Assembly (NCBI GenBank): GCA_029204225.1 | Contig: CM055097.1 | Span: 60,555,467-60,619,466, forward strand | Source: Diphasiastrum complanatum | Taxonomy: Eukaryota > Streptophyta > Lycopodiopsida > Lycopodiales > Lycopodiaceae | Length of the DNA stretch: 64,000 bases | Direction: 5' to 3' | Shown here: piece after piece, positions 33,526-61,560 of the stretch | Position numbering within the stretch: the first letter of the stretch is position 1 | Layout of the letters: every line of letters begins with the position of its first letter | The notes under the pieces: generated by a model | Seen by the model: the letters and a program-made list of their open reading frames with translations, nothing else | The model's database searches: none | What the model was told of the DNA's origin: nothing | Translations under genes and position numbers: made by a program

Positions 33526-35066
33526 ACATGCTCTTGCTAAATTTTGGAAAGTGAACAAAAGTAGTAGATGAATTATATAGCTTTGATATTTGATTGTGAT
33601 TAATTTATAGCCTTAAGAAATAGATTAATGGTAAGTAGGCAATAGTTCACTTACTCCAAAAGTCGAAAATTTACAAGAAGATTCTGGTTGAAAAAGACCA
33701 TCCTTTAGCCATCGTTCAGGTTTAAAATCAGTCGCATCAAGTCCCCATAGAAACTGCATTCGACCCATGCTATATGGCACCACATTCACAAAGTCCCCTT
33801 TCTTCACCCTCATTCCATTTGGAAGTTTGTCATGTGATAATGCTTCTTTCCCAATCTGAAACAAAATCATTTGTTGGTTATACTACAAATATGACTAGCT
33901 TCAGTTGTAATAAGCTCATGACATGGTTCACATACATCTCCTTTATACGCATGATTATAACTTTTGGCTTCAAAATGCTTTATCAAAAAGATTTTAGGTA
34001 ATGACACATTGTCTAGTGGAATTGTAGTTTTGGTGACCTTTATGGATGGTTGGGGTACTTTTCAAAGTTATGGCACCCATTTCTGATCCCTGTAACTTCA
34101 CCTTTCCTTGAGTAAAGCCATTACTATCGTGATATCAGAAAAGATAAATGAAACTTTTAAGAATAAAAACAGAAAACATGAGGGGAGTGACAGAACTTAC
34201 AACTGGAACAGAAGGGTACAACCTCAAGGACTCTGTCACGGTAGCATGAAGATAGTGCATCTCGCTCAAAGTGTCATGGTTGAGTAAATGAGCATATGTT
34301 GCAACGTTGTTAATAAAAAACTCATTATCCTTGGTGTTGTGACCGTGTTGGATAGGGGCACAAACTCCCTTGCCTTCCATAATTTTGGATAATTCCTGCA
34401 AGATTTTAGTTTCTACATGCGGATGACTGCAAATCATAAAGAAACTCCAGGATAAGGCTTCTACCGTGGTTCTACGGCCTGCTTCAATAATATTCACAAT
34501 CACATCTCTGATGTTCTGGTCGGAGTCGACCTTGGGATCATCCTTAAAAAGAAGCAATATCCTTGACAAGAGATCCCCATTCACCTGTATACAGCTATTC
34601 TTAAGGCGTAAATACTCATTGGCAGTTACTGCTCATTCTACTATAAGGTGATAAGCAATCACTTGGTTTTCTATTGCGGCAGCGTGATATAAGAATGCAA
34701 ATAAAAGACAAACCTAGAGAAACTCTCAATTTCATAATTTTATCCTTACGTCTTGCAGAGCATCGTTCTGATCTTTTACTTCATTTCTCCGTTTCTCGAT
34801 GATTTTATAGAGGAATTCGTCCATAAACGTGAGATTCTCTTTCAGTATAGCTTCGGGTCCAAGCAAGAGAAACCTTTTCAATTTCCAGAAAGGATCAAAA
34901 GTACGCCGATTCGTTTGAACTTTGGCAGTTTCAAAGGCTTTAATAAAGTCAATTTCAAGAAATGAAGATGACAGGCTCTTTAATTTAACGCCACAGACAT
35001 TCTGGAAAATAGAATCAAATGCCATTCGTCTGAAAACATCCTGCAAAACATCGATATCATGAGAAT

Positions 35067-35123
<57 letters not shown>

Positions 35124-36148
35124 CAAGCAAGGGTCCTAGTCAGGCATGCTTTTAATATCCTTCCAAAGTTAAAATTCAATATGGAAGTACCTGATTCACA
35201 CTCTCGAAAAGTTAGGGTCAATACCTGCATTTCGATTTCTCTTATTCCTTTGGAAGCAAGCTGGATGAGCATGGAAGAAACTTCAATACCCGCTTCTATG
35301 TGTAAATCCAGGTTGTATTTTGTGTGGATGCTAGAAAAGAGCTGGCGTTGTAATATTTGGCGATTCCACTCCCATTGTTCACCATCAGATATAAATATAC
35401 CATTTCCATAGAAGGCGGTTAGCTGAGAAGATATAACTTTCCCCTGCAAAATAAGCAGAAATTGTTGAATACACTAAGGCTTCCAACATTTTATCAACTA
35501 AGAATTAGTGTCGATATTAGAAATCTTATTTAGAGAACGACTAGACATTTGCATTCACGACTTATGTCATACATGTATCGTAGCCTACGCTTCTGCCATC
35601 TAAGAAGCGTAGGCTACATGTGTCTCCTTTCAGCTCCTTGGAAAATGTTCTAGGTGACTCACTTATCCAGTAGCTATTTCCAAAATAGGTCTTAATAGCT
35701 GTCTTGTTTCATCATGTTTTCCAGAACCTTAAGAGAATGAGTCCGTCATTTTAATTTGACAAGATTATAAAACTGTACGAAATGCGTCCCTGTTGCAATA
35801 AAAAACGATAATTACATACGATGTTGTTACCTTGCCATAATTTTTCCAGTTTTTCTTGAATACGTACTCCATAATAACGGGATCAACAGTGAAGATATAA
35901 TTTGATAGGAAGGTTGAGACCCTGAAGGTGTCGTATTGCTGAGCATACTTAAGGATCCAATCATGCAACTGGCCTACGTTGCTGAACAGTTCAAAAGTGG
36001 ATCCGAATATGGGCCATGCTCTCGGACCTGGTGAGCTCTTATGTTGCAGAAACTGATAAATGCACAGGCAAGCAAGCAATCCTACAACGACATCTACCCA
36101 TTTGGCAACCCCAAACACCTCGAAGTTAAAAACAGAAATATTCGTCAT
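33062..36148 (-). CDS. Cytochrome P450, CYP86 clan, CYP704-like; six exons
   Basis: Spliced model (minus strand): 36148-35831, 35443-35225, 35040-34750, 34584-34201, 33855-33655, 33283-33062. Every junction is GT-AG and phase 0, giving 544 codons, a normal P450 length. Visible features: an N-terminal membrane anchor (about residues 14-36), proline hinge SPGPRAWPIFG, C-helix WEWNR, I-helix AGRRTT, K-helix ESLR, PERW, and the heme loop FSTFGAGPRSCIGK split by the last intron. RLYPSVPV and YSMGRMQFLWG resemble CYP704. Family members are ER-bound fatty-acid omega- or in-chain hydroxylases used for cutin, suberin or sporopollenin; the substrate here is inferred only. Oddity: the acidic residue before TT in the I-helix is Arg. 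A possible TATA box (GATATAAC) is near 36230. Confidence 0.9.
33484..33530. repeat. (CA)n microsatellite in P450 intron 5
   Basis: CA dinucleotide run of about 45 bp, inside the last intron of the P450 gene. Confidence 0.95.
35070..35120. repeat. (CT)n microsatellite in P450 intron 2
   Basis: CT dinucleotide run of about 51 bp on the plus strand, within the 184-bp second intron. It makes up more than a quarter of that intron. Confidence 0.95.
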
Positions 36149-36955
36149 GAAGAACTAGTTTATCTGAGTCGTCACTTAGTTCTTCTGAAGGACATAAACC
36201 TGCAATCAATTTCCAACAGGAAGAACTGGTTATATCGAGACTGATGCTGGATCGTTAATGCTGATTCTTAGTAAGTGCATCTGCTTTTGCTCATCACCCT
36301 TGATCATCTGAATAATAGTGCTGAAACATTTATTTTTCCATTCTGATAACGCCGATTGATCTAAATAACAGAGATGATGAACAATCTTATGCTTAGCTTT
36401 TCTCTTGATGCTTAACTACAAGCTGATGCACCTGTGACTGCCTAGAAAACAAGCAGCTTCAATGAAGGGCTGTAACTGTATATACAATCCTTTGTATGTC
36501 CAGAAAACATTTCCTTTCTATCTTTGTGTCTTGTTTCACAGGGAATCCTTTCTTTTTTAATAGGCGAATCGGTTCTGCACTGACCTTTCCATTGGGGAAT
36601 CCTTTGTGTTTGCAAGGGGAATGGATTCCACAATGTCGTTTCCATTGGGGAATCCTGCCATAGAAATGGCTTGGGCAACATGACCCAATTTGCTTATGTA
36701 AAGGATGACCAATGCTACCCAAAGTTTGTAACCTTATATGGATGGAATTTTACGCTTGCATCTAGTTGAAACATGTTTATGTTTTCTTGGACACTGCCCA
36801 TGTGTGAAACTTCGGTGATCAATCCCTCACCAAGAACTCTTTACCACCACACCACAAGGGGGCAGATGAAGATTAGGGACGGAGCTAACATTTTCCCACA
36901 TAGGAGTACATGGATGGAATTTTACGCTTGCAAAAAATTTCTACAATTTTTTGGC
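36149..36955. other. P450 upstream region with short direct repeats
   Basis: No gene is recognised. TTTCCATTGGGGAATCCT occurs twice (near 36585 and 36637). A 23-bp segment, ATGGATGGAATTTTACGCTT plus three bases, occurs at 36738-36760 and again at 36910-36932, flanking about 150 bp. The P450 promoter should lie in the left part of this interval. Confidence 0.45.
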
Positions 36956-37044: not shown

Positions 37045-37833
37045 ATTACTAGAATCCGAATCGCGTGGCGCGTCGCAGTTTCTTCCCATTTCGATTTTTG
37101 ATTTTTGAATGCGAGAAAGAAGATATTTTTGTGCTTAGCGGTGGTGCTGCTCTCTATGGCTCTTCTAATTGTGCTTGATCTTTCTTATGCTTTTTTGTCA
37201 CAGCCAAAATCCTCTACCTTTTCACCATAGACAAGGCTTGGAGAAAAAATTGAGCATTGGACAAAAAGGCGAGCACCATAGCCAACATTCAAAAGTCTAC
37301 TAGTTTTTCTTTGATACACTAGTGTTTATTGTTGTTTATGTTCTTTTGTCATAGCCAAAGCTCTTTACTTTCTCACCATAGCCAGGGCTTGTGCAAAAAA
37401 GTCATTAGAGGATATTAGAACTCAAAATTGACCCTTTGTCAAGATGCTATTTTTGACTTCGCACGCTTTCAACGCTTATGTGTCCCAATGAATGGTGTCC
37501 ATCTGTGACGAACTGTAACAATGGTTGACGAACGAAAATTGTATTTAACTTTCCCGGCCAAATTTTCGTGATTTTCAAATATCCCGCCGAGCGACCACAA
37601 TTATAATCCGAATACTCTTATGTTGCCCGTCTTTGTACACTCGAGGTTGATTTGACGTCAATAGTCGTAAACTGTAGTTAACGAATCCTTGTAGTTTAGG
37701 AACTTCTTGTCATTCATAGGTATACCTCTCATTCTCTTCATTTTTTCTCTTATTTTGGATTGTCATTCTTAGGTATACCTCTCAATCTCTTCATTCTCTC
37801 CGTTCTCAGCTTGCGTACACGTATTTTCGACTA
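37045..37833. other. Upstream region of gene A with direct repeats
   Basis: No gene. An imperfect direct repeat of about 60 bp (TTTTGTCA(C/T)AGCCAAA...CACCATAG) occurs near 37190 and 37345. A 40-bp direct repeat (TTGTCATTC(A/T)TAGGTATACC...) occurs at 37708 and 37760, just before the gene A start, and could be promoter or leader sequence. Confidence 0.5.
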
Positions 37834-39179
37834 ATGGCTACACATAATCGGAGACCAAGAGGAACCATTGATGCAATCAATATTTGCAATGAAAAGAATG
37901 CAGAAGATCAATGGATACCAAGAATATATCAAAAATATTAATGGATCTTGATGCATCTCTCTGCAAAAGGATCATTCCGGAAAAGAAAAATATCGGATAA
38001 CATATATAGAAGCTCTTGGAAAGGCAAGATAATGGATTTCAAAGTATCACCTACTGGTCAATCTATCACGGAAGTTTTAGGTCAGCATGCTTATCTTCAC
38101 AATGAGCTCAACATTCATGTCTTCTTTCCAAATGATAGAAGAAAATGCAATTGTAAGTTTTTCGATTTGATTTATTTCGAGTTAGAATTTTCTTTAAATT
38201 ATATTTTTCTTGTGATATTTTTGTTGGTTTTGCAGATTTGTATCCATCAAATTTCATTGAATGGCAAACAGTGCAATCGATTGTAGAAATAATCAATGTC
38301 ATACATTCGGATATCAACATTTTACAATATAAAGGTCATTCTTCCAAATCACTTTTAGAGTCAGGAGTTTTCTTTTATGATTACACCTATTTTCTTGATA
38401 AATATGGTTTAGTTGGTAGATTAGAGCCATATCCTCTACCAGATTTTTCGAGTGAGGAATGGATTTCTCTTGATGCAACAATTTCAAAAAGTTTTTGATC
38501 TAGATTATATATTGATATTCAGAGTATATTAAAATGTAGCACTGGATCAAAGAATAATAGATTAAGTGGTATCTACCTTTTACTATGTTTGTTGATTTTT
38601 TTTTCCAAATGCAATGTTTGGAGAACGAAAACATTGTTTATTTGTAAGGACTTGAGTGCTGAAATAATCGCCGAGTTGTTGGATGATGATTGGGATACGA
38701 AACAAAATCAACTAGTTGAGTGCAGAGTATGTTACTCATCAATGACATTTACATATCACATCGAAAAATAAATGCTCACTTTGTTGTTGTATTATAGAAG
38801 ATGGATTAAATGCAAAAATATTTGGAAGCCACTTGATCAAGATTTTGGAATAAACCCTCAAGAGCAACTTCAAATAACAGTCAAAAGAAATGAGAGCATT
38901 CTTGCAATGATTGAGGTCGAGGAAGATTGGTGTCTCAATCACATTCGATCAGAACTAGACATGTTGCAATTCAATCTACTTCAATAATATCAATTTCGGT
39001 TAAATGGTGTAAAGGTACGTTATGCCATATGAAAATGTTCTTTTTTTAGATTTCTAACTGAATCGGTTTCAAAAAATATATTAACTAAAATAATTTCTCT
39101 GGTGCAGATAAGAGTAAGACAGGAGGAGCATATAAAATGCAAAGACATTGGAACATCCATCGAAATTGAAGATCCATAG
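37834..39179 (+). pseudogene. Gene A: three-exon gene of unknown function, copy A
   Basis: Exons 37834-38152, 38236-39014 and 39108-39179 join through GT-AG introns of 83 and 93 bp and keep one frame of 389 codons plus stop. That frame is broken only by in-frame stops at 37939, 38496, 38769 and 38985. A homologue lies on the minus strand at 62415-63026. Both share WRTKTLF/RRTSTLF, (C/F)KDLS, a WD(T/S)K segment, TYHIEK/HYHIEK, QDF and (M)(I/V)EVEE-W...IR(S/A)E. Both end with a short last exon containing (V)RQEEHIKCKD/RQDLVTCCKD. The C-terminal 70 residues alternate like a small beta-grasp (ubiquitin-like) domain, which is only a guess. No known family is recognised. It sits tail-to-tail with a C48-peptidase remnant in both copies. 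Confidence 0.65.
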
Positions 39180-39261
39180 ATTATGAACAATGGAATTTTG
39201 TATTATGTAATACAATTTTTTGTATACATCAATTTTGAAAATATATGAATCTCTTTTTCAA

Positions 39262-39424
39262 AGAGACTCTTTCATTTCTATGATCTCCACCCATGGTGCA
39301 GAACACAATGTAATTGCAACTAGACAATATGAGTTTTCGATAACAAGATTCATTGTCTCCCGCAGGAAATGTCTCATTGTCTCCATGGGGGAGATCTTCT
39401 GGCAATTGAACTCCAGTGACCACT
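39262..39424 (-). pseudogene. Duplicated last exon of a C48-like peptidase gene
   Basis: The minus strand encodes EFNCQKISPMETMRHFLRET followed by LVIENSY. This matches the last exon of the remnant at 39775-39927 (EVSPMKIMHFRQQTIKLVIENSY). It is a second, isolated copy of that exon located between gene A and the better-preserved remnant. Confidence 0.6.
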
Positions 39425-39774
39425 ACAATCAGATATATCGGCTTGCCCTCTTTGATGTCTCGGATATATCGGATATATTTTTGGTCTTCATTGCCTTGGT
39501 CTGTATTGTCCTTGTCTTGGCATATTTGGATATGTTCATAAGATGATCTGATCTAAGCTTTTCCACAACAAGGCAAGGCAGATGAAGGCCATGAAAAACT
39601 TACATGTAGGAACACCATAGAAGATGAAAGATAATAATTTGACATAATAACAAAAAAACAAACATGTTATAACAACCATAGAAAAATGTAAATATGTTTG
39701 CATAAAATCTTTCTATACATGTGTCTCATCCACATCAAGGGATGCCAATATACGACCTCTAAAATACATGCTAA

Positions 39775-40150
39775 TCAATGATCTCTAAAATCCATTTCTC
39801 CAGTTGGAAGTTGCTTGGGTGGAGAACACTCTGCCACTACAACTGGATATGAATTTTCGATCACAAGCTTTATGGTTTGTTGCCTGAAGTGCATTATCTT
39901 CATTGGGGAGACCTCCGGGCATTTAAACTGATAAAAACAAAAACACAATTAAATGTTATTAATCAAAGATTAGTTATTAGAAATATAATTAAGAAAAAAA
40001 ACAAAAACACTATTAAATGTTATTAATCGAAGATTACCTCTTCCAGATTGAGAAGTCCATCTTGGAGTGCAAGCCAATTAAAAAAAAATTTGACATTGCA
40101 TACCATATACCAACCATAGCAATTGAATTAACCTACTGGGAGGACTGTAG
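39775..40150 (-). pseudogene. Ulp1/C48-type peptidase, C-terminal remnant (copy A)
   Basis: Two minus-strand exons, about 40150-40038 and 39927-39775, join with GT-AG signals. They encode NCYGWYMVCNVKFFFNWLAL and then FKCPEVSPMKIMHFRQQTIK, ending in TGA. The counterpart at 61.8-62.25 kb has FSCGWYTLYNTKLFFEWF and PAHVYRFRQKI, so the two are homologous. C48 peptidases cleave SUMO/ubiquitin-like proteins with a His-Asp-Cys triad, and the Cys lies in this Cys-Gly-Trp region. Here a Tyr separates the Cys from Gly-Trp, suggesting damage. The N-terminal half with the catalytic His is missing. Two 71-bp dyads follow within 50 bp. Confidence 0.6.
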
Positions 40151-40193
40151 TATTCAATAAAACAAAAATTAGTAACAAATTTGAACATTATGT

Positions 40194-40351
40194 AATATCG
40201 GATTAACGCGCAGGAGCTTATAATAAAATATAAAAAAGAAACAAGCGCGCATCGAACCGATATTCAAAAAATATTGTTTGAATAGCGGATCAATGCGCAC
40301 GATATGAAAAGAAACCAAACAATAACTACAAGGGCACGTCGAACCGATATT
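40194..40351. repeat. Two tandem 71-bp dyad units (copy A)
   Basis: Unit 1 is 40194-40264: box AATATCGGATTAACGCGC, 35-bp spacer, inverted box GCGCATCGAACCGATATT. Unit 2 is 40281-40351: AATAGCGGATCAATGCGC, 35-bp spacer, inverted box of the form GGCACGTCGAACCGATATT. Each unit is exactly 71 bp. They match the units at 51.0-52.75 kb in length, box position and box sequence, although the spacers differ. This ties copy A to copy B. Confidence 0.85.
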
Positions 40352-40472
40352 GAAAAATTTTTACCTCTGGATCAACCATTTTCAACTTCGAATATGCTAT
40401 TGCATGTGGTACTAGAAAGAGTTCCAGTATTTTCTGTATATGGCTCCTGGCAATTTTGTGGGTGTGTGTAAT

Positions 40473-40750
40473 AGAGAGTTAGAATTAAAGTAGAATCATT
40501 GTGTTACTATACTATGGGTCCTATCAATGGATAAGGATCAGTTGGCCTTGCCACGAGGCAAGTCGACGGGACACGCGTCCCGCCAACGGCAACCTGGGTC
40601 ATGCATGGGTTGCCTGAGTGAACAACTATATGTACAGTGTAATTTCATTTTGAGAAATACAGTTGCTATGTGAGCTTGATGTGGAGAGTGTTTTTTGTCT
40701 GTGTTACTGTGTAGCATAATCCGTATTCCTGTGCAAAGCAAATTCTAAGT
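40473..40750 (+). repeat. 278-bp LTR, copia family 3
   Basis: The segment precedes a primer-binding site. It is repeated in inverted orientation, with the same 278-bp length, at 53808-54085. The shared ends are AGAGAGTTAGAATT and AATTCTAAGT, so they lack the usual TG...CA but include an 8-bp inverted pair TTAGAATT/AATTCTAA. The exact borders are uncertain by a few bases. Confidence 0.75.
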
Positions 40751-49770: not shown

Positions 49771-50087
49771 TATCAATGTCATGCCTGACGTTTAACTGGT
49801 ATGGTTAACTTCAGACAAAAGCTAGTTAAGCATGAGACATGAGATTTAATAACTTCTCTACATGCTCATTCCAGAAATCAGGACTAGAGCTTTAAGACTG
49901 AAAATCTTGGTGTGCTCAATGCAAAAACTGAAGTGGGAGTAGTAGAACTTTTGAAATCATTGTATGCTTATAGTGAAATATGAGGCATTACGATTTATCA
50001 ACACAACATAAAAATTACAAAAGTAAGGTATGATAGATCTATTCATGTTGATTAACTATAATTTGAAGCATTTATGGATTGTAGCTT
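49771..50087. other. Interval between two minus-strand genes
   Basis: No gene or dyad is recognised. It would contain the 3' end of the 311-codon gene and the start of the Transposase_24-like gene. Confidence 0.4.
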
Positions 50088-51023
50088 TCAACAATGGCAA
50101 TGTTCCATTTGCATATAGCTCTTCCTATGCAATGCACACCAATTATTAAGAAAAATTTGAAAGTTGTAGAGAATGCTACTGCAATAGTTAGAGAATTGAG
50201 AATCAATAACCAGATGAATATAGATTTGTGGGTTCCAATTGCCATCTTTACCATAATCTATCTCACTTTCGAGGTCATTATATGTGTAATCCACAATGTC
50301 GAAAAATTCTGATAAATTTTGTGCAAAAATTGAGAGGATTTCATCCTCTCTCAAATTCAAAACATCTTCTATATCATTCAATGAGATATAACTCTCATTA
50401 TTTATAAAATAAATGGGAATATTGAGTAGAGTTAATTGATTAATAGGAGATGCAGATGGATTAGAATCAAAGAGAATTATTGAACGAGGGAGAGTTTTCT
50501 GATAATCTGAAGCCATAGATACTTCAGCTTCAACCCCTATATTAGTATCTGCATCATCTACATCAACTGGAGTAGATGTAGATGCTTCAATCATTGGAAC
50601 AATAGAAGATTCAACAAACTCATCATTTGGAATAACATCAGATATGTAAAAGACAAAAGCCATTCCTTTTATTAGAAGACGACATATTCTTTTGTGGATA
50701 CCACAATATATATTTCTTTTGAAATGGTCATGCAGATTAGAGTACTTTCTATTGTGTTTATGCTTAGAGGATGGCTGAGAATGCACAAGGTCCTGAAAAT
50801 GAACGAAACAAAAACTATCTATATCCTGAACAGGAGTACTAATAATCTGAGAAAAGTTATCAAGAAGAGAAATGAAATCATAACGTGTCTCATAAACTAG
50901 CTTATTGATATCGAAGGGAGCAAAAAAAAGACTAGAAAAGTACTCTAATTTCTCAGGTGGAATGTCACTAGCATTCAAAAAATCCAAAAGTTTGTTATCT
51001 GAGGACATGGAGGAACTAGCCAT
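50088..51023 (-). CDS. Intact 311-codon gene of unknown function beside the dyad array
   Basis: Uninterrupted frame from ATG (51023) to TGA (50088), 311 residues, and the only undamaged coding frame in the element. Start MASSSMSSDNKLLDFLNASD; a helical N-terminal 90 residues; a His/Lys/Arg-rich patch (SSKHKHNRKYSNLHDHFKRN); a Ser/Thr/Asp-rich acidic linker; and an Ile/Asn/Asp-rich C-terminal half (LNDIEDVLNLREDEILSIF). No domain is recognised and there is no membrane segment or signal peptide. The start codon lies 9 bp from a 71-bp dyad (51033-51103), mirrored by the H3-like gene on the other side of the array, so the two are probably divergently expressed from the same region. A DNA-binding or replication role is only a guess. 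Confidence 0.6.
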   Translation of the reverse strand: MASSSMSSDNKLLDFLNASDIPPEKLEYFSSLFFAPFDINKLVYETRYDFISLLDNFSQIISTPVQDIDSFCFVHFQDLVHSQPSSKHKHNRKYSNLHDHFKRNIYCGIHKRICRLLIKGMAFVFYISDVIPNDEFVESSIVPMIEASTSTPVDVDDADTNIGVEAEVSMASDYQKTLPRSIILFDSNPSASPINQLTLLNIPIYFINNESYISLNDIEDVLNLREDEILSIFAQNLSEFFDIVDYTYNDLESEIDYGKDGNWNPQIYIHLVIDSQFSNYCSSILYNFQIFLNNWCALHRKSYMQMEHCHC

Positions 51024-51032
51024 ATTGAACCT

Positions 51033-51221
51033 GAAATCAGTTCAACGCGACTGAATGATTTCAGAGGAGGACTGTTCAATACTACGCGCGTTGAATCGAT
51101 GTCATTTTTATGAGAATGAAATCGTTCAAAAACATAAGTCAGAAGAGGCTGATATCGATTTAGCACACTTGAGTGAATTTGACCATGAACAATATGTGAA
51201 GGTGCGCGTCGATTCAATATC
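51033..51221. promoter_or_regulatory. Two 71-bp dyad units before the 311-codon gene
   Basis: Unit 3, 51033-51103: GAAATCAGTTCAACGCGA, spacer 35, GCGCGTTGAATCGATGTC. Unit 4, 51151-51221: GATATCGATTTAGCACAC, spacer 35, GCGCGTCGATTCAATATC. Unit 3 ends 9 bp from the ATG of the minus-strand gene at 51023. Equivalent bases of the two boxes in a unit are 53 bp apart, about five helical turns, so two bound protein molecules would sit on the same face. Confidence 0.8.
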
Positions 51222-51754
51222 GCGAGAAAGAAGTATAGCAAAATAGCGAGTGAGTTCAGAATAAAAGATCACGAAATCAAAATAAAGAAAGTGGTGCCCA
51301 TATATATAGCCTATTTGTGTTGATCACAACCATACATTTGTCAAATAATGAATTGATCACCGAGGAATATATTTATCTACCAATCAAAGAGAGACAAATT
51401 TGTACCTCCACCAGAATAGATTAAATAGTCTATCACTAGATTCTACTAAATATCATTTGCCCTGACCCTAAAATTTGTACCTACGCTGGAATACATTAAA
51501 TAGTCTATTAGTAGCCTCTCCGAATCTTCATTAAACAAATATTAAATGGAGGTCATTGAAAATCGTGTCTCTTGTCCTATTTAAACACCGTAAGGCGAAA
51601 TTTTTTTCTTTTTAGATAGTTGTTCATTCAAAACATTTTCATAAGGCAGAGCATTTTGTAAAAGCAGATGGCAATTCTACGCAAGAAGACAAATGCTTCA
51701 CAAGAACAGATCAAATAGGCACATGTTGATGAGATACTTCGGTAATGCGAATGG
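51222..51754. other. Divergent intergenic region, left part
   Basis: No gene. An imperfect direct repeat with TTTGTACCT(C/A)C and ATTAAATAGTCTAT occurs near 51398 and 51474. No dyad unit is present in this part. Confidence 0.5.
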
Positions 51755-51972
51755 GATATCAGATCAGCGCACCCGTCCCAAATAGGAGTGTTTTCAACTT
51801 GGACTATGCGCGTTGATATGCTATTGGAATGCATTATGCATCAGCTTAATTCAGAAATTCCCTCATATATTTAAAGCTAAAAAAAATTTCAGTTAACTCA
51901 GATATCAGATTAGCATGCCTTTGGAAGAGACAGTGATTTTTTCACTCAAACTATGCGCGTCGAATCATTATT
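51755..51972. promoter_or_regulatory. Two dyad units in the middle of the intergenic region
   Basis: Unit 5, 51755-51825: GATATCAGATCAGCGCAC, spacer 35, GCGCGTTGATATGCTATT. Unit 6, 51901-51972: GATATCAGATTAGCATGC, spacer 36, GCGCGTCGAATCATTATT; this unit is one base longer than the others. Each inverted box is preceded by CTATGC or TATGC. Confidence 0.8.
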
Positions 51973-52030
51973 GCAAAAAAAAAAGATTTTGGAAATTTTT
52001 TGAAATTATTGGACTATAGTATGCTTGATC

Positions 52031-52095
52031 AAAGCTTGATTCGATAGACTCTTCATTCTGTCCAAAGCTAACAAGAATCTATCGAATCAAGCTTT
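52031..52095. repeat. Perfect 18-bp inverted repeat between dyads
   Basis: AAAGCTTGATTCGATAGA (52031-52048) is the exact complement of 52078-52095, with a 29-bp loop. Its core TTGATTCGATA resembles the dyad boxes but in the opposite (outward) order and without the GCGC end, so it may be a variant site or an independent hairpin. Confidence 0.8.
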
Positions 52096-52114
52096 TATCA
52101 TTCATTTATTTTTC

Positions 52115-52185
52115 AATATCGGTTCAACGTGTGAAAAAAGCCTTTATGGTGTACCGAAGTAGTATATGCGCGTCGATTCGCTATT
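52115..52185. promoter_or_regulatory. 71-bp dyad unit 7
   Basis: AATATCGGTTCAACGTGT, spacer 35, GCGCGTCGATTCGCTATT; exactly 71 bp. Confidence 0.8.
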
Positions 52186-52580
52186 GGATGCAATAATGAC
52201 AGTTGGAGTTTTCAAAATTTTCAAGGATTGAATATCAAAAAAAGTAGTTGGAATTCTTTTTAATTATAATGACTGAATTTATAACATTATCTTGTCAATT
52301 TCAGATATTAATTGTAGATGTGACCATACATTTGTCGAATTAATTGAAGATGTGACGATACTTATGTATAAATTAAATGTGGTTGTCATTAGCCATATCA
52401 ACTAATTATTTTGATGACCGATGGATTAGATTGATAAGCCTCTGAATATCTCAATGTAATCATTATCGTAATCATAGCCATACCAATACGTAAGCAATCA
52501 TTTCGGATTTGCACTATATATACAGATGATCGAGGCTTAAAAAAATTTCGTTAACTTCTTATCGTTCTCTACTTCCATGT

Positions 52581-52746
52581 GGTATCGATTTAGCGTGCCT
52601 GAAGCTAAGTACCTACATTCCGCTTTTACTCACATGCGCCCATCTGCACTCAACTATCGATTTGGTTCAAGATCAGATATCGATTCGACGCGCCCGACCG
52701 AAATTCTGATCTTGAGTTCTCCCTGTTCGCGCGCTGATCCGATATT
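52581..52746. promoter_or_regulatory. Half dyad and full 71-bp dyad before the H3-like gene
   Basis: A left box GGTATCGATTTAGCGTGC lies at 52581-52598, but its partner at the expected place (about 52634) has decayed to little more than ATGCGC. Unit 9, 52676-52746: GATATCGATTCGACGCGC, spacer 35, GCGCGCTGATCCGATATT. Unit 9 ends 8 bp before the H3-like start codon at 52755, mirroring the 9-bp gap at the other side of the array. Confidence 0.8.
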
Positions 52747-52754
52747 GGATAGCA

Positions 52755-53294
52755 ATGGCACGGACAAAGCAAACAACATGAATCCACCCTGGTGGAATTC
52801 CAATCTCAGGTGGTGGTCTGAGAAATCCACCACCACCACCTCTTCCACCACCACCTCCTCCTAGGCCTAGGGGCAGTCCAAGAGACCCTGCTTGGCTGAA
52901 GGATATTTGGAAGCTACAGAAGATGAATAATCTTCTGATTCCAAAAGCTCATATACAGAGATCCATCAGACAAGTTACAAGAAGTCTAACTGTAGTTGTG
53001 AGATGGACTGTAACGGCAGTTGAGGCATTGAACACCACATATGAGGATTTTCAAGTAAAAAAAATTTCAGATACTATTGTTGCAGTTGTCCATGCCAAGA
53101 GGGTGACCATCATGCCCAAGGATGTCAACATAGTGTTCAGGCTAAGGGACACATATGACAAGTTTGCAGAGTACTTCAGACCAGCTCCTTCATTTCCTCC
53201 AAAACAAGATTCAGAGAAAAGAAAGCGAAGGCAATCTCAACCTTCCCGAGTTTTTCAGTGTTACTTCTTTCACCCCCTGCACTTGCCTTTGTAA
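52755..53294 (+). pseudogene. Divergent histone H3-like gene carried by the element
   Basis: One frame runs from ATG 52755 to a stop at 53294, broken only by TGA at codon 9. It begins MARTKQTT like histone H3. The TGA stands where H3 has Arg8 and is followed by IHPGG against KSTGG, so Lys4, Gly12 and Gly13 are kept and Lys9 and Lys14 are lost. The rest of the tail is proline-rich (NPPPPPLPPPPPPRPRG) and of normal length. The fold follows: LKDIWKLQKMNNLLIPKAHI, AVEALNTTYEDF and HAKRVTIMPKDV at residue 113, one residue off the H3 position. About 40 extra residues follow the fold, some basic. Canonical H3 packages DNA in nucleosomes; here a modified nucleosome or element-specific chromatin is an inference. 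Centromeric H3 is an alternative, but the conserved ARTKQT and HAKRVTIMPKD argue against it. Confidence 0.75.
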
Positions 53295-53379
53295 ATACTC
53301 CTCAGTATGTATAGTATGGCCAATTGTTAAACACTTATCTTCAAGCTTTAGGTCCTCTCTACAGTTTTAGGATGCCAAA

Positions 53380-53807
53380 GACCAATGCTGGTTTCCCCTA
53401 TCTAAATTAGATACAAGTGAATTAGAAAGTAGGGATAAAATGCTAGGGGACAATGTACGAGGGGGGGCAATTCAATACTGGATGGAATTTTTCTAGACCC
53501 CATTGTTTATAGTTCTAGCTTTGTTTCCTCTTCAATTCATGGCTGCTTTTGATTTCCTTGACTTCAAAAGTCTGCACGATGATATGCTACAATACGTCAG
53601 ACTGGGGACTCCAATTCTCGTTCTTCCATACATAACAAAGTAAGTGTATTTCTATCAGATTTTATTAAGTAGAATTTTTTATATGAATATTTATTCAAAT
53701 AAATTGATGGTTTTATGATTGCAGTGATCATTGGAGCTTATATGTGTTGTACTTATATGCCAATTATGAGGGTGTGTGTAATCCAGTTTGTTTAAAGATG
53801 AACTCTA
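53380..53807 (+). pseudogene. Ulp1/C48-type peptidase gene 1, cut by an LTR
   Basis: Exon 1 (about 53400-53639) encodes LGDNVRGGAIQYWMEFF, a TAG near 53514, then LHDDMLQYVRLGTPILVLPY. An 85-bp GT-AG intron (53640-53724) leads to exon 2 with ITNDHWSLYVLYLYANYEG. The sequence I(x)NDHWSLYVL is the catalytic-His region of C48 peptidases. The frame runs into the 278-bp solo LTR and the Cys-containing half does not follow, so the gene is truncated. Intron position and phase are identical to those of peptidase gene 2. Confidence 0.6.
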
Positions 53808-54085
53808 ACTTAGAATTTGCTTTGCACAGAAACACAGATTATGCTACACAGTAACACAGATAGAAAACACTCTCCACAACAAGCTCACATAGCAACTGTA
53901 TTTCTCAAAATAAAATTACACTGTACATGTAGTTGTTCACTCAAGCAACTCATGCATGACCCAGGTTGCCGTTGGCGGGATGCGTGTCCCGTCGACTTGC
54001 CTCGTGGCGAGGCCAACTGATCCTTATCCACTAATAGGACCCACAATACAGTAACATAGTGATTCTACTTTAATTCTAACTCTCT
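53808..54085 (-). mobile_element. Solo LTR of copia family 3
   Basis: A 278-bp inverted copy of the LTR at 40473-40750, at roughly 93% identity by eye, with no primer site or internal sequence beside it. The flanking five bases (CTCTA and CCCTT) do not match. It lies between the two C48 peptidase genes. Confidence 0.75.
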
Positions 54086-54092
54086 CCCTTCA

Positions 54093-54959: not shown

Positions 54960-55410
54960 TGTTAAAAATTCACAATTCTAGCTTGACTAGTTTTTGGTCA
55001 TATGACTTGTAAATAGTTAGATGGTCATGATGTGGCTTGTCACACGTGCCAAATAGCATAGGATTCCATTCATAAGGATGTTCTCAAGTAGACCTAAGTG
55101 TTAGAACCTTTGGAATGAGTCCAAATTATGCTTAGATACAAGGGAGAAAAAATAGGAGCTATTTTTGGTAATTTTTGCATTGTTGAGGGATCTCCAAGAT
55201 TCCAACCCTAACTTGGTAGGGATGAAAGATCCACCAAAATTAGCATTAGGAATAAGTTTAGGGCTACTCATACCTGCCCAAAACCGTGATGGATCATGTA
55301 TATATAGGTGATGATATCTCACCAAAATCAATCAAGCAATTTCATGTTTTTTCTCTCATAATGGTGCAATTGCTCTCTATGTTCATAATTGTTTGAGTAC
55401 TTGTGATTAC
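54960..55410 (+). mobile_element. Solo LTR of copia family 1, left part
   Basis: The first 451 bp of the 682-bp LTR, from TGTTAAAAATTCAC to GTGATTAC, interrupted by insertion of a full element at the ATTAC site. Its right part lies at 61561-61797. Together they make one LTR of about 683 bp, with the ATTAC counted once. Confidence 0.9.
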
Positions 55411-56092
55411 TGTTAAAAATTCACAATTCTAGCTTGACTAGTTTTGGTCATATGACTTGTAAATAGTTAGATGGTCATTGTGTGGCTTGTCACACGTGCC
55501 AAATAGCATAGGATTCCATTCATAAGGATGTTCTCAAGTAGACCTAAGTGTTAGAACCTTTGGAATGAGTCCAAATTATGCTTAGATACAAGGGAGAAAA
55601 AATAGGAGCTATTTTTGGTAATTTTTGCATTGTTGAGGGATCTCCAAGATTCCAACCCTAACTTGGTAGGGATGAAAGATCCACCAAAATTAGCATTAGG
55701 AATAAGTTTAGGGCTACTCATACCTGCCCAAAACCGTGATGGATCATGTATATATAGGTGATGATATCTCACCAAAATCAATCAAGCAATTTCATGTTTT
55801 TTCTCTCATAATGGTGCAATTGCTCTCTATGTTCATAATTGTTTGAGTACTTGTGATTACTAATGATTATAGGATTGAATGTAGGTCTGGTGTACAGTAC
55901 TCAGACTGTGGGAGGCCGTACTTTCACACGTGTGAAGCCTTCTTCAAGGATTTGGGCCATTTAGTGAGGTTCAAGCATAGATTTTTGATGGATTTTGATG
56001 GTTCAACTTGTGCTAATCTTATGAAATCATAATCTATTGTTTCCCTCATCATTTCAAGTGTTTTAGGATCCTTATTTGCTGTAATTTTTACA
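55411..56092 (+). repeat. 5' LTR of the full copia element (family 1)
   Basis: 682 bp, TGTTAAAAATTCAC...TTTTTACA, preceded by the target duplication ATTAC (55406-55410) and followed at once by the primer site. It matches 60879-61560 with about ten differences by eye. Confidence 0.95.
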
Positions 56093-56104: not shown

Positions 56105-56903
56105 CTAAAGGTTGAAATGAGCTAAATCCTTGGTTTTCATTCAATTTGATCACAATTTTTGATCTAAATCTTGTGTAGATTGGATATTAGCATCTAGTAT
56201 TGATTCTAGAACTCAAAGTGAGTCAAATACATTGGAGATTGGTGTTGTGTGACTTCATTTGCAGGTGTTTAGGTGTCTAAAACCAGAGGCAAAGTTGAAT
56301 TCAATTCACATTACCAAGATAGCAAGTTTTGCTTGCTCCAAGCATTGATTTCTAAGCGAGTTTTGGAGGTGATTTCATAGAGGAGGATTTCTAGCATTCA
56401 AGGAGAGGGAATATCAGAGTTTTGGGGACTCTTCAAGGCTGTTCTAAGGTGTAGTAGGCACCTCCTAAAGTGATTTAGGTTCAGTCCAACCATTGCTTGA
56501 CTTATGCACCAAATTAGATCAATTTTTCATCAATTTTGATCATCTTTTGCTTGTGATTGGATAGTAGATTGTGTTGCATCCTCATTAAGTTCCATTTAGC
56601 TCTTTTACAAGTGATTTTGGAAGTATATTAGGTTGCTGAAATTCACTCTTGATCAGATCATTTGAAAGCTTTAATGTTCTTTATAGAAAGAGGGGCAATT
56701 CTACTAGTATTGTCTACTTCAATCAAGCAAGTGCATTGTTTCTAGTATTCTATGATTTGATTTTGTTAGAGATCATTCTTAGATCTTTATAGGAAGTCTA
56801 TTAATGATCTTTTCAGGTCCCTAAGAAGTGGGATAAGATAGACCTTCAATCAAATCAATAGAACTAACCTTCATTTGTGTCAAGTCCTTGATTAGGAGAC
56901 TAG

Positions 56904-59279
56904 ATGGCATCTATAAATGCATATCTTTTGGATACTAATGAAAGGCTCAACAAAACTAACTATTCCATATGGAAAGTTAGAATGGAATCTATCATGATCA
57001 TGCAAGATCTGATGGAAATTGTAAATGGTAAGGAGGGTGAACCTATTCATCCTCAAGAAAAAGCCAAATACATCAAGAGGTGCAATGTTGCACTACATTG
57101 CATAAAAATGAATGTTGCAAATGAACTCTTAAGAGAGGTAGGAGATTGCACTTCAGCTCAAGATGCTTGGGAGACTTTGCAAAAGGTCTATGAATCCAAG
57201 AACCAAACTAGAATGTTAGCTTTGAAGAATCAAATCTATAGAAGCTATCAAAAGAAAGGAGAGAGTGCACATACTTTTGTCCTAGGAGTAAAGGAATTGA
57301 ACAAAGAGCTAGCCTTTATAGGTGATCCTATCAAGGATGAAGAGCTTGTTCAACTCATATTGAATGGACTAAGCTTTGAATTTGACAATTTGGTTCAGGG
57401 ATATGCAATTATGGGTAAGCTACCCATACTTGAAGAACTCCAAGGCACACTCATGGTCGAGGAATCAAGAAGGAGCCAAATGCAAGAGAGGATGGATAGG
57501 CTTTCCATCCAATGTGGAGATGACCAAGCTCTCTTCACCAAAGGCAAAGGCAAGTCCAAAGGCAAAGTATCAACATTCAAGAAGTCTACAAAGCTTGAGG
57601 ATCAAGAAGGACCCTCAAAGGCATCTCCATCAACCACCAAAGTCAAGAAGGACAAATCAAAGGTGAAGTGCTACTATTGTAGCAAGATGGGGCATTATGC
57701 CTTGGAATGCTTCAAGAGGAAGCAAGATCAAATCCAAGCCAACATGAGCAAAGAGGAGGAGGAGGAGAGTTCACATGAGGACTCTCTCATGATGTCCATA
57801 TTTTCTTCAACAAGCTTCAAAGGAGAAGATCCTTGGTGGATTGACTCGGGTGCTAGTTCACACATGACTAGTAAAAGGGAGTTTTTCTCTTCTCTCTTAT
57901 CTTATGATGGACCTATAAAGTCTATCTATACAGCAAATGATGAAGCTTGTAAGATTGAAGGAGTTGGTAGAATTCCCCTTTTCTTAGGATCTTCCAAAAA
58001 GATCAACATAGAAGGTGTTTTGTACATTCCTACAATAACAAAGAATCTACTAAGTGTTGGCCAAATGGTAGACAATGGTTTCAATGTTGACTTTGCTTCA
58101 AATGAATGTTTCATCAAGAAGAAGGGTAAGATAGTGGCTAAGGGCACTAGACTTGGCAAACTTTATAAGTTGGATGCATTTGTGGATACTAATGTTGTCA
58201 TGTTGGCCGAGAAGAGCAAGATATCTACTTTTACTTTATGGCACAAAAGACTTGGACATGGCAACTCGGGTTCCATGGAGGCTATGATCAAGGAGGAGTA
58301 TGCTTTAGGCCTACCAAGGTCTATTGGGAAGGAAGACAAGGTTTGTGAAGCTTGTGCCTTATCCAAGGCACATAAGAAGGTGTTTCCTAACTCCATCACA
58401 AAGTCATCTCATCCTCTTGAACTCATACACTCGGATGTGCACATTGCTAGCACCAAATCTAATGGAGGTTCATCCATGTTTTTAACCTTCATTGATGACT
58501 ACTCAAGATATTGTTGGGTGTTCTTACTTTCCTTCAAGTCTCAAGTATTTTATACTTTTGTAAAGTTCAAGTTGTTTGTGGAAAAGCATCATAATCATAG
58601 CATCAAGATTCTTAGAAGTGACAATGGTGGAGAATTCATCTCCAATGAGTTCAAGGCCTTTTGTGAGGAGGAAGGGATCAAGAAAGAGACTTCTTGTCCT
58701 TACACTCCTCAACAAAATGGAGTTGCTGAAAGAAGGAATAGAACATTATGTGAATGTTCTAAGGCTTTAAGATTAGATGCTTGTTTGCCCAAATCCTTTT
58801 GGGGTGAGTCTCTTGTATGTGCAAACTACTTGATGAATAGAGTGTCTTGCAAAGCAATTGAAGGCAAAACTCCTTATGAGATGTTGTATGGAAAGAAACC
58901 CAATCTTAATCACTTAAAAGTTTTTGGGTGTATATGTTATGTGCATGTGCCATTGGAAATAAGAACCAAGGAGGATCCATCTTCCACAAGAGGGATCATG
59001 CTTGGATATGCAAGCTCAAGCAAGGGCTACAAAGTCTATCTCCCATCCTTGAACAAATTTGTTGTTTCAAGGGATGTCATCTTTGATGAACATCATATGC
59101 ATATGCTTGAAGAAGGCTCAAGTGCTCCAACAATCAAGAAGAAGATGGCCGAGGAGCAAGATCTTGGTTTTGAGGAGGAGATCACAAGCACCAAACCCAC
59201 CTATCACACCAAGGAGATCTTCAAGGGAAAAAGTGGAGCCATCAAGGCTCACATATCAAGGCTAAGGACAGCAAGTTGA
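56904..59279 (+). CDS. Ty1/copia gag-protease-integrase (family 1)
   Basis: Long intact frame of 791 codons. Gag occupies about residues 1-240 (LNKTNYSIWKVRMESIMIMQ). The zinc knuckle CYYCSKMGHYALEC is at 256-269, and protease WWIDSGASSHMT has its catalytic Asp near 314. The GAG-pre-integrase motif LWHKRLGHGN is near 446. The integrase core has Asp near 511 (HSDVH), Asp near 573 (DNGGEF) and Glu near 609 (GVAERRN), i.e. D,D35E. The frame leaves the pol frame before the RT: from about 59190 the true sequence (PRRSSREKVEPSRL) continues in another frame and meets a TAA at 59263. Everything up to integrase looks functional; RT-RNase H is separated by the shift. The start is the first ATG after an 0.8-kb leader. 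Confidence 0.9.
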   Translation: MASINAYLLDTNERLNKTNYSIWKVRMESIMIMQDLMEIVNGKEGEPIHPQEKAKYIKRCNVALHCIKMNVANELLREVGDCTSAQDAWETLQKVYESKNQTRMLALKNQIYRSYQKKGESAHTFVLGVKELNKELAFIGDPIKDEELVQLILNGLSFEFDNLVQGYAIMGKLPILEELQGTLMVEESRRSQMQERMDRLSIQCGDDQALFTKGKGKSKGKVSTFKKSTKLEDQEGPSKASPSTTKVKKDKSKVKCYYCSKMGHYALECFKRKQDQIQANMSKEEEEESSHEDSLMMSIFSSTSFKGEDPWWIDSGASSHMTSKREFFSSLLSYDGPIKSIYTANDEACKIEGVGRIPLFLGSSKKINIEGVLYIPTITKNLLSVGQMVDNGFNVDFASNECFIKKKGKIVAKGTRLGKLYKLDAFVDTNVVMLAEKSKISTFTLWHKRLGHGNSGSMEAMIKEEYALGLPRSIGKEDKVCEACALSKAHKKVFPNSITKSSHPLELIHSDVHIASTKSNGGSSMFLTFIDDYSRYCWVFLLSFKSQVFYTFVKFKLFVEKHHNHSIKILRSDNGGEFISNEFKAFCEEEGIKKETSCPYTPQQNGVAERRNRTLCECSKALRLDACLPKSFWGESLVCANYLMNRVSCKAIEGKTPYEMLYGKKPNLNHLKVFGCICYVHVPLEIRTKEDPSSTRGIMLGYASSSKGYKVYLPSLNKFVVSRDVIFDEHHMHMLEEGSSAPTIKKKMAEEQDLGFEEEITSTKPTYHTKEIFKGKSGAIKAHISRLRTAS

Positions 59280-60864
59280 GGGTATCTCATCCACTTCTTA
59301 TGCTTTATCTAGTTTTGAAGAACCGTCTAATGTTGAAGATGCATTGAACTCCAAAGAATGGTATAAAGCTATGTTGGATGAGTATGATGCCTTGATTGAG
59401 AATGAAACTTGGTTGCTTGTTGAGAGACCTTAAAGGAATGTAATAGGATGCAAGTGGGTCTTCAAGCTTAAGTTGAATGCAAATGGGAGTGTTAACAAAC
59501 ATAAAGCAAGATTAGTTGCAAAAGTTTATGCTCAAGAGAGAGGGATAGACTATGAGGAAACTTTTGCACCCGTGGCCAAGATGGTCACAATAAGACTAAT
59601 CATTGCATTTGCATCACATTTTGGATGGATTCTATGTCAAATGGATGTCTCTAATGCTTTCTTGAATGGTTTTTTGGAAGATGATATCTATATGGAGCAG
59701 CCACAAGGGTTCATCAAGCATGGAATGGAGAACAAAGTATGCCATCTCCAAAGAAGCATCTATGGCTTGAAGCAAGCCTCGAGATCTTGGAATGCAAGAC
59801 TACATTGCTATCTTATTTCACTTTCTTTTGCTCAAAGTGAATATGATCCCACTCTTTACATTAAGTTTGATGATGTTGGTATTGTACTTTTACTCATTTA
59901 TGTAGATGACATCATCATTAGTGGAAATAGTGTTGATGGTATTGAAAAAATCAAGATAGATCTATCCTTAGAGTTCAAGATGGTAGATCTAGGGTGTCTT
60001 CACTTCATCTTAGGCATAGAAGTACTTAGAGGGTCTGATTTTATCTTTATAAGTCAAGTAAACTATGCTCAAAGTCTTTTGAATAAGTTTAAGATGGAAG
60101 TATGCAAAAGTGTTGACACACCAATGGAGCAAGATGTAAAAGTGCCAAATGAAGATGATGAAAGATCCTTCATGGACATCACTTTGTTTAGGCAACTTAT
60201 AGGTTCCTTAATGTGGATCACTATAACTAGACCAGATCTTAGCTTTAGTGTATGTAGGTTGAGCCAATCCATGCAAAAGCCATTGAATATCCATTGGAAA
60301 AAGGCTAAGAGGATTCTAAGATACATCTCGGGTACATTGGATTTTGGGATTCTATATAGAGGCGATGTGATTAACCTTCATGCATTTAGTGATTCAGATT
60401 TTGTAGGGGACAAGAGGGATAGGAAATCAACAAGTGCCTATTCAACTTTCATAGGAGAAGGTGTGGTTTCATGGCTTTCAAAAAAGCAAGAAACTATATC
60501 TCTATCTTCAACCGAGGCCGAGTACAAAGCTTTGACAACCACTACAAAGGAGGTACTTTGGATCAAGAGATTATTGGTGGAACTAAATATCATGGATTCA
60601 GAGGAGGCACCAATCATCTACAATGACAATATATCAGCCCAACACCTTGCATCTAACCCAATCTTCCATGCAAGATCTAAGCACATTGAGATATGCCATC
60701 ACTTTGTGAGAGAAATGGTGCAAGCCAAGGAGATTGCTTTGGAGCATGTTCCAAGCAATGAATGTGTAGCTGATCTACTTACTAAACCACTTCAAAAGAC
60801 ACCTTTTATGAAGTTCAGATCATCGCTTGGAGTGATTAGTAAAGCAATGATTGAACCAAGCTAG
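59266..60864 (+). pseudogene. Ty1/copia reverse transcriptase-RNase H (family 1)
   Basis: In the frame that follows the TAA at 59263 the pol sequence continues (NVEDALNSKEWYKAMLDEYD), has one more stop (TAA at about 59431), and then runs open for more than 460 codons. RT shows FAPVAKMVTIRLI, MDVSNAFLNG, GLKQASRSW and the catalytic YVDD near 59899. The connection region has LIGSLMWITITRPDLSFSVC. RNase H has FSDSDFVGDKRDRKSTS, STEAEYKAL, YNDNISAQHLA and the closing ADLLTKPL. One frame shift and two stops separate it from the first polyprotein part, so this copy needs help or is dead. The polypurine tract follows at 60868. Confidence 0.9.
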
Positions 60865-60867
60865 ATA

Positions 60868-60878
60868 GTGAGGAGGAG
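60868..60878 (+). other. Polypurine tract
   Basis: GTGAGGAGGAG immediately before the 3' LTR; primer for plus-strand DNA synthesis. Confidence 0.85.
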
Positions 60879-61560
60879 TGTTAAAAATTCACAATTCTAG
60901 CTTGACTAGTTTTGGTCATATGACTTGTAAATAGTTAGATGGTCATGATGTGGCTTGTCACACGTGCCAAATATCATAGGATTCCATTCATAAGGATGTT
61001 CTCAAGTAGACCTAAGTGTTAGAACCTTTGGAATGAGTCCAAATTATGCTTAGATACAAGGGAGAAAAAATAGGAGCTATTTTTGGTAGTTTTTGCATTG
61101 TTGAGGGATCTCCAAGATTCCAACCCTAACTTGGTAGGGATGAAAGATCCACCAAAATTAGCATTAGGGATAGGTTTAGGGCTACTCATACCTGCCCAAA
61201 ACCGTGATGGATCATGTATATATAGGTGATGATATCTCACCAAAATCAATCAAGCAATTTCATGTTTTTTCTCTCATAATGGTGCAATTGCTCTCTATGT
61301 TCATAATTGTTTGAGTACTTGTGATTACTAATGATTATAGGATTGAATGTAGGTCTGGTGTACATTACTCAGACTGTGGGAGGCCGTACTTTCACACGTG
61401 TGAATCCTTCTTCAAGGATTTGGGCCATTTAGTGAGGTTCAAGCATAGATTTTTCATGGATTTTGATGGTTCAACTTGTGCTAATCTTATGAAATCATAA
61501 TCTATTGTTTCCCTCATCATTTCAAGTGTTTTAGGATTCTTATTTGCTGTAATTTTTACA
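60879..61560 (+). repeat. 3' LTR of the full copia element (family 1)
   Basis: 682 bp, the same length as the 5' LTR, ending TTTTTACA and followed by the target duplication ATTAC (61561-61565). Confidence 0.95.

Follow-up and report, generated by a model that had tools for sequence, protein, structure and literature searches.

A ~10.2-kb lycophyte transposon family with terminal inverted repeats carries a diverged histone H3 gene

Results

A histone H3-like gene within a broken element

The window, by which we mean the whole 64,000-nucleotide stretch of Diphasiastrum complanatum DNA analysed here, contains a forward-strand frame (52755-53294) that reads MARTKQTT, meets an in-frame TGA at codon 9 (52779-52781) and resumes as IHPGG, after which come, in order, a Pro-rich stretch, an H3 fold containing HAKRVTIMPKDV, and a basic stretch. 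The part downstream of the TGA matches the Pfam Histone family (PF00125) significantly, at 1.8e-17 and 64.2 bits against a cut-off of 26.4, across residues 34-122 of the frame that starts at 52782. At E<=1 it also matches 179 distinct sequences in the PDB, the best being an H3 chain (1e-13), and the two PDB alignments shown are gapless across the H3 fold. Set against canonical H3, the fold of the window copy is 40% identical over 85 residues, with no gap and with the TIMPKD signature retained, and for another genomic copy the alignment extends from Met1 through residue 132 (E 1.7e-22, 35% identity). Judged by these matches, the frame is a true H3 homologue, far beyond chance. An earlier note, made from the letters of the window alone, had thus read the H3 start and the residues of the C-terminal signature correctly. 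The structure prediction that it had proposed as a further check gave, from the single sequence of the frame, a model of low confidence only (mean pLDDT 40.4), and a fold search with this model, meaningless at such confidence, returned no match at E<=0.001.

The window copy of the gene is decayed, with the TGA at codon 9 and with a deletion at 53249/53250 that measures about 330-390 bp against other copies. Because of this deletion the frame loses register over its last 14 residues (VFQCYFFHPLHLPL), and the sequence joined after it (53250-53807) retains 81-91% DNA identity to other copies. The surrounding element (Table 1), as reconstructed from its pieces, is likewise a decayed and broken copy. 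Sequence left of 49782 is foreign to it; its left piece is without the outermost 120 bases and the left terminal inverted repeat (TIR); about 3.3 kb is missing at 50233; and at 53807 it is broken by a repeat, here called X, the right half lying inverted at 40472-37403 beside a second X. The presence of X copies at both edges of the break looks like the insertion of a mobile element with direct terminal repeats, followed by an inversion.

The H3-like gene and a second gene, ORF-A, diverge from a common spacer, which is probably their shared promoter. The dyad that the earlier note had described beside the H3-like gene is a real palindrome within this spacer. The dyad region is matched on both strands in many related loci, and it could be a regulatory or a transposase-binding site.

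Other parts of the window hold further features. A 450-bp unit occurs there in two tandem copies (54960-55861, 99% identity); on contig C17 its start also matches a Copia-bearing stretch, around position 14.9 kb of that stretch, and the unit may be a Copia LTR. A Copia retrotransposon occupies 56904-60864, its gag-integrase and reverse transcriptase frames long and open, and a copy on contig C17 matches 56172-60964 at 98.6% identity over 4.8 kb. On the minus strand, 34135-36154 contains pieces of a cytochrome P450-like gene (Pfam p450, 3.2e-14 for 34135-34632).

Table 1. Parts of the decayed element in the window, in window coordinates
Feature	Position	Strand	Remarks
Right TIR	37403..37434	+	3 mismatches to the pattern; end common to 5 copies
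Displaced right half	37403..40472	-	opposite in orientation to the H3 gene; contains the ORF-C region
ORF-C examples	37942-38286, 38499-38771	+ of window	third gene region
Second repeat X	40473..40750	-	adjoins the displaced right half
Left element piece	49782..50232	+	equals complete-copy positions 121-565; first coding part of ORF-T
ORF-A exon 1	50233..51023	-	starts MASSS; cut at 50233 by the internal deletion; no Pfam match
Spacer between the divergent ORF-A and H3-like genes	51024..52754	.	divergent layout at 18/19 paired loci; probable shared promoter
Palindromic dyad	52007..52105	.	33-nt arms, 88% complementary, inside the ORF-A/H3 spacer
H3-like gene, 5' part	52755..53249	+	ATG, ARTKQTT tail, TGA at codon 9, Pro-rich linker, fold, KRKR-type basic stretch
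Histone fold	52887..53147	+	residues 36-122 of the frame from 52782 (PDB alignment)
Rest of C-terminal domain and 3' region	53250..53807	+	joined after the deletion; out of frame in the window copy
Repeat X, interrupting the element at the break	53808..54090	+	278 bp common to the second copy, 93% identity

The H3-like gene belongs to a large repeat family

Searches of the genome from which the window comes (1.745 Gb, 5176 contigs) with the H3 frame recovered at least 150 scored matches, at 72-100% identity, from 10311 first-look candidates, and by hand count 39 of the 150 matches listed have no stop inside the matched stretch. The ordinary host H3 genes are separate from these repeats, with 13 full-length matches at 97-99% identity. 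A single-copy host pseudogene with unique flanks, the alternative against which the earlier note had set its own reading, is ruled out by the size of this family and the separateness of the host genes.

About 350 kb from the window locus, the same contig holds a second copy of it that is 99.7% identical over 3.5 kb. There the window's H3 copy is again accompanied by the displaced right half, in nearly identical form, which suggests a segmental duplication; the two loci differ left of window position 49782.

Ends, gene order and partner genes of the element

The right end of the repeat unit falls at the same place in five copies, the window's among them, and the left end, initially identified in two copies, repeats it in inverted orientation (80-87% identity over 35-39 bp). 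This defines TIRs of about 35 bp, with ends that read CATTAGG...CCTAATG. The TIR pattern CATTAGGRRAWATWWGRRCTCAAAATGGGCCC, with up to three mismatches allowed, occurs at 2738 sites in the genome, as against 0 for a reversed-pattern control; its one site in the window is at 37403-37434, and 100 shuffles of the window gave none. A complete copy on contig C1, 10,240 bp long, has a TIR at either end, and four other loci as well as the pieces in the window align with it collinearly, each for a part of its length. The genes of the complete copy stand in the order ORF-T (+), ORF-A (-), spacer, H3-like gene (+), which is frameshifted in this copy, and an ORF-C region of minus-strand open frames. By these ends and this shared order, copies of the H3-like gene belong to a family of TIR DNA transposons of about 10.2 kb. 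No target-site duplication (TSD) was found at any of four TIR pairs, one of which was read end to end and the others paired by orientation and distance. A TIR pair also lies only 2570 bp apart, at C1:37350780-37353349, so that the element may also occur in shorter forms with internal deletions.

The three genes recur together. ORF-A lies within 10 kb of the H3-like gene in 19 of the 150 listed H3 matches, divergent in 18 and convergent in one, and the divergent spacing is 0.96-1.86 kb in 16 of the 18 pairs and 3.9 and 6.3 kb in the other two. ORF-T lies within 12 kb in 21 of the 150; in 18 of these it is on the same strand, 1.7-3.6 kb upstream, and the remaining three are near-identical loci with ORF-T on the opposite strand about 10 kb off. 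When the H3 places were shifted at random (200 trials), the mean number of ORF-T/H3 pairs was 0.25 and the maximum 2, a comparison to be read with the fact that the observed H3/ORF-A/ORF-T loci are partly near-duplicates and hence not all independent.

ORF-T, at the left end of the element, comprises several exons and a Cys-containing stretch, and has at least 150 matches in the genome, with 85-95% identity in the 149 listed besides the query's own place. Its pieces gave weak sub-cut-off matches in Pfam, none reaching the cut-off for any family, including hAT or any other transposase family. By its position, conservation and Cys-containing stretch it is a candidate transposase. ORF-A has at least 130 rows of genome matches; the tested pieces of ORF-A, of ORF-C and of the C-terminal domain of the H3-like protein yielded weak sub-cut-off Pfam matches only, and a single-sequence structure prediction for ORF-A exon 1 reached a mean pLDDT of 32.2.

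The mobility that the earlier note had supposed for the H3-like gene is thus borne out by defined ends, TIRs, high copy number and recurrent neighbours, and its placement of the gene on a plant DNA element holds. The neighbours that it had named fare less well: in the ORFs and joined pieces tested, Pfam lent no support either to Ulp1-like protease genes or to a Transposase_24-like gene, though short or spliced remnants of such genes may be present.

Other classes of element were considered and rejected. A Helitron came into question through the 3' end CTAATG, and the inverted copy at the left end points to TIRs instead. A hAT element with a captured H3 is at odds with the lack of a hAT match in the ORF-T pieces and of an 8-bp TSD at the four pairs. 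A CACTA or Ulp1-bearing element was set aside on the lack of Transposase_24 or Ulp1 matches in the tested ORFs and on ends that begin CATTAG.

A retained Lys4 end on an otherwise replaced tail

For comparison across the family, 33 H3 copies were extracted, and the removal of the frameshifted complete copy and of near-identical ones left 23 non-redundant copies, in an alignment of 157 codons that was treated as gapless, with a protein identity of 76-88% to one reference copy. The two frames that run furthest from the start position give the H3 variant a length of about 390-410 residues. It opens with an H3-type start and a Pro-rich linker ahead of the H3 fold; after the fold come a basic stretch, a spacer rich in Pro and Ser, and a C-terminal domain that is conserved.

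The majority N-terminal residues are ARTKQT(A/T)R, and the rest of the tail is replaced by the Pro-rich stretch. Thr3, Lys4, Gln5 and Thr6 are each retained in 21-22 of the 23 copies, 22 being the figure for Lys4, and Lys9 is retained in 0; Gly, Ile or Val stands at position 9, and no copy has Lys at position 14. Retention along the tail is uneven, with Arg2 kept in 12, Arg8 in 16 and the start Met in 18 of the 23, the replacements of Arg2 and Arg8 being mostly Trp, Gln or stop. As to whether other copies share the TGA of the window, a point raised in the earlier note, codon 9 is without a stop in 21 of the 23. Of all 33 copies, 31 have Lys4, and in 22 no other lysine occurs within the first 45 codons; because Lys4 is mostly the sole lysine there, nothing like the Lys27 or Lys36 sites is left.

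Within the fold, the gapless PDB alignment (in our numbering) indicates the retention of Arg69, Arg72, Arg83, His113, Lys115, Arg116, Thr118 and Asp123 and the loss of Arg63 and Lys79; these positions serve DNA and H3-H3 contacts.

CENH3 generally has a longer loop 1 than H3 and lacks the MPKD signature. As a diverged H3 with an altered tail the variant resembles plant CENH3, and it has LLIP and RWT motifs that look CENH3-like. It differs from CENH3 in having a fold gapless relative to canonical H3, in keeping TIMPKD and in the H3-type start of its tail. Given the lack of a gap over 85 residues and the retained TIMPKD, we reject CENH3 identity on these general features.

Signs of selection during the spread of the element

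If copies simply decay once inserted, variants private to one copy should look neutral, and shared variants should stem mostly from the period when the element was active. Among the 23 copies, private variants have an N:S of 119:36, near which stands the neutral expectation of 3.12:1, and variants found in three or more copies have 58:53, which differs from the private ones at p=4e-5. The contrast is present in the fold (private 63:19 versus shared 28:33, p=2e-4) and in the first 22 codons (24:5 versus 13:13, p=0.02), with no contrast in the Pro-rich linker (17:5 versus 12:3) and no significant one in the 17 codons after the fold (15:7 versus 5:4). It grows when CpG transitions are removed. 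None of the other five reading frames gives a comparable contrast, the nearest being one reverse frame (116:38 versus 65:44, p=0.01) and the remaining four having p=0.29 or more. The C-terminal domain shows it as well (19 copies; 165:51 versus 29:24, p=0.003). Over 253 pairs the ratio of mean dN to mean dS in the H3 fold is 0.27, and the mean dS among the tested copies is 0.28. The tested copies are mostly the best protein matches, which biases the sample towards fewer amino-acid changes, yet the private variants still look neutral.

Since the shared variants are depleted in amino-acid changes and the private ones look neutral, the H3 variant probably evolved under purifying selection as the element was spreading. 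The occurrence of this signal in the tail, the fold and the C-terminal domain makes it likely, as far as sequence comparison can tell, that the variant was functional for the element.

Equivalent comparisons for the partner genes gave a weak contrast in ORF-A exon 1 (24 cleaned copies; 212:71 versus 70:36, p=0.097), which stood at 167:55 versus 82:46 (p=0.028) in 29 copies with near-identical ones still included, and none in ORF-A exon 2 (14 copies; 61:36 versus 9:9, p=0.31). For the ORF-T exon, compared in three copies, dN/dS is not clearly low, at 0.68 and 0.71 for the distant pairs and 0.44 for the close pair.

A second family of H3-like repeats

The canonical H3 query also recovers a different set of H3-like repeats in the same genome. 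Searching with one of its members gave at least 151 matches from 6337 candidates; the 150 listed are 75-100% identical to it, and 93 of these are without a stop by hand count. The fold of this second family is 57% identical to canonical H3, nearer than that of the first, and in the one copy read upstream the N-terminus is long, Pro-rich and free of ARTKQT. A 12-kb radius around the 150 listed places of the second family takes in no listed H3 match of the first and, at one place, a listed ORF-T match, for a chance expectation of 0.28.

Discussion

Transposons are silenced largely via methylation of H3 at Lys9 and Lys27 together with DNA methylation. A transposon that has an H3 variant of its own, with a tail of the composition described above, can be read in this setting. 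The window holds a decayed copy of a ~10-kb TIR transposon family that carries its own H3 variant, and a role of this variant in chromatin, the reading that we favour over the others, has in our view about even odds. That the element family needed this variant is probable. Homology, TIRs, copy number, gene order, the depletion in shared variants and the composition of the tail we regard as established; selection on the H3 fold does not by itself prove a nucleosomal role.

As a possible and still tentative account of that role, we posit a chromatin proof against silencing, in which a nucleosomal H3 variant on the element would keep the Lys4 docking site and have discarded the Lys9 and Lys27 sites. 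In the favoured reading the variant would pair with host H4 and would be placed on element DNA, perhaps via its C-terminal domain. The resulting chromatin could bear Lys4 marks and could not bear Lys9 or Lys27 methylation, so that the element would stay expressed or accessible for transposition and would escape silencing.

The histone fold might instead have been reused outside nucleosomes, as a dimerisation and DNA-binding module of a transposition complex in which the C-terminal domain links to ORF-T or ORF-A. A protein about three times the length of H3, with a C-terminal domain that also shows the signal of selection, a fold that has drifted to 35-40% identity with H3 and a gene that recurs beside the other genes of the element would all fit such a module. 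We nevertheless think it rather doubtful, as the majority-kept ARTKQT(A/T)R is hard to explain without a chromatin reader or writer as partner, and the surfaces for H3-H3 and DNA contact keep several of their residues.

The tail itself could be the active part, the protein acting as an H3-tail mimic that titrates or recruits host readers or modifiers of the first H3 residues, with no chromatin formed. The near-complete retention of Thr3, Lys4, Gln5 and Thr6, in 21-22 of the 23 copies, speaks for this. We hold it unlikely, given that the signal of selection in the fold, needless for a mimic, is at least as strong and that Arg2 is retained in only 12 of the 23.

A host H3 could have been picked up and amplified as a passenger (transduplication) without function for the element, an event with a precedent in the capture of H3 by fungal DNA transposons (PMC6710886), and one that the broken state of the window copy would suit. 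Such a passenger should not show shared variants depleted in amino-acid changes beside private ones that look neutral, nor a conserved extra C-terminal domain, nor 39 stop-free copies among the 150 matches listed despite a mean dS of 0.28 among the tested copies, and we judge this quite improbable.

Finally, a fragment of an endogenous large virus, raised by the core histones that some large DNA viruses encode (PMC8015243), is rejected as exceedingly improbable in view of the ~10.2-kb unit with TIRs, its 2738 end sites and an IMG/VR search, suited to close relatives only and in a collection from which near-host records are possibly absent, that gave no close relative of the ORF-T exon or the H3 frame.

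The closest known parallel is in fungi. Dothideomycete hAT transposons carry captured H3 in Pseudocercospora fijiensis and Pyrenophora tritici-repentis, and in the former there are 784 H3-like copies and a full-length hAT set of 9.5-9.9 kb (PMC6710886). Like the lycophyte family, these are TIR DNA transposons that carry and spread an H3 coding sequence. They differ in having a hAT domain and an 8-bp TSD (PMC6710886), whereas the lycophyte element has no hAT match among its ORF-T pieces and no TSD at the four pairs; it is further set apart by an H3 at 35-40% identity to canonical H3, by the long extra domain and by the signal of selection during its spread.

Another parallel, in plants, is with the VANDAL elements of Arabidopsis, which encode the anti-silencing VANC proteins (PMC10398659). 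In both cases a plant transposon would have an accessory gene directed against silent chromatin, which for the lycophyte element is our hypothesis only. Unlike the H3 variant, the VANCs are described as sequence-specific proteins that bind noncoding regions, not histones (PMC10398659). The core histones of Marseilleviridae and Medusavirus likewise present a selfish genome that encodes a core histone of its own; those are large viruses whose histones are thought to package the viral genomes (PMC8015243), as opposed to the one H3 variant on a 10-kb transposon found here. Our search for transposon-encoded or captured histones, made in a literature of largely open-access journal papers, returned nothing closer than the fungal hAT elements, and in that literature we did not find a selected, extended H3 without Lys9 on a plant element.

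If the proposed role in chromatin is true, an H3 without Lys9 and Lys27 that is kept by selection would be a direct molecular answer to silencing. The family would also offer a naturally occurring H3 variant whose tail has been cut back to the Lys4 end, and with it a testable system for the residues of the tail. Even as a part of a transposition complex, a selected histone fold as a gene of a transposon would go beyond the cases found in the literature searched. The second, separately located family of H3-like repeats would, if it is what it appears to be, mean that histones were taken up by repeats more than once in this genome. Under the reading of a silencing-proof chromatin, the many copies in the Diphasiastrum genome would stand as a record of an arms race.
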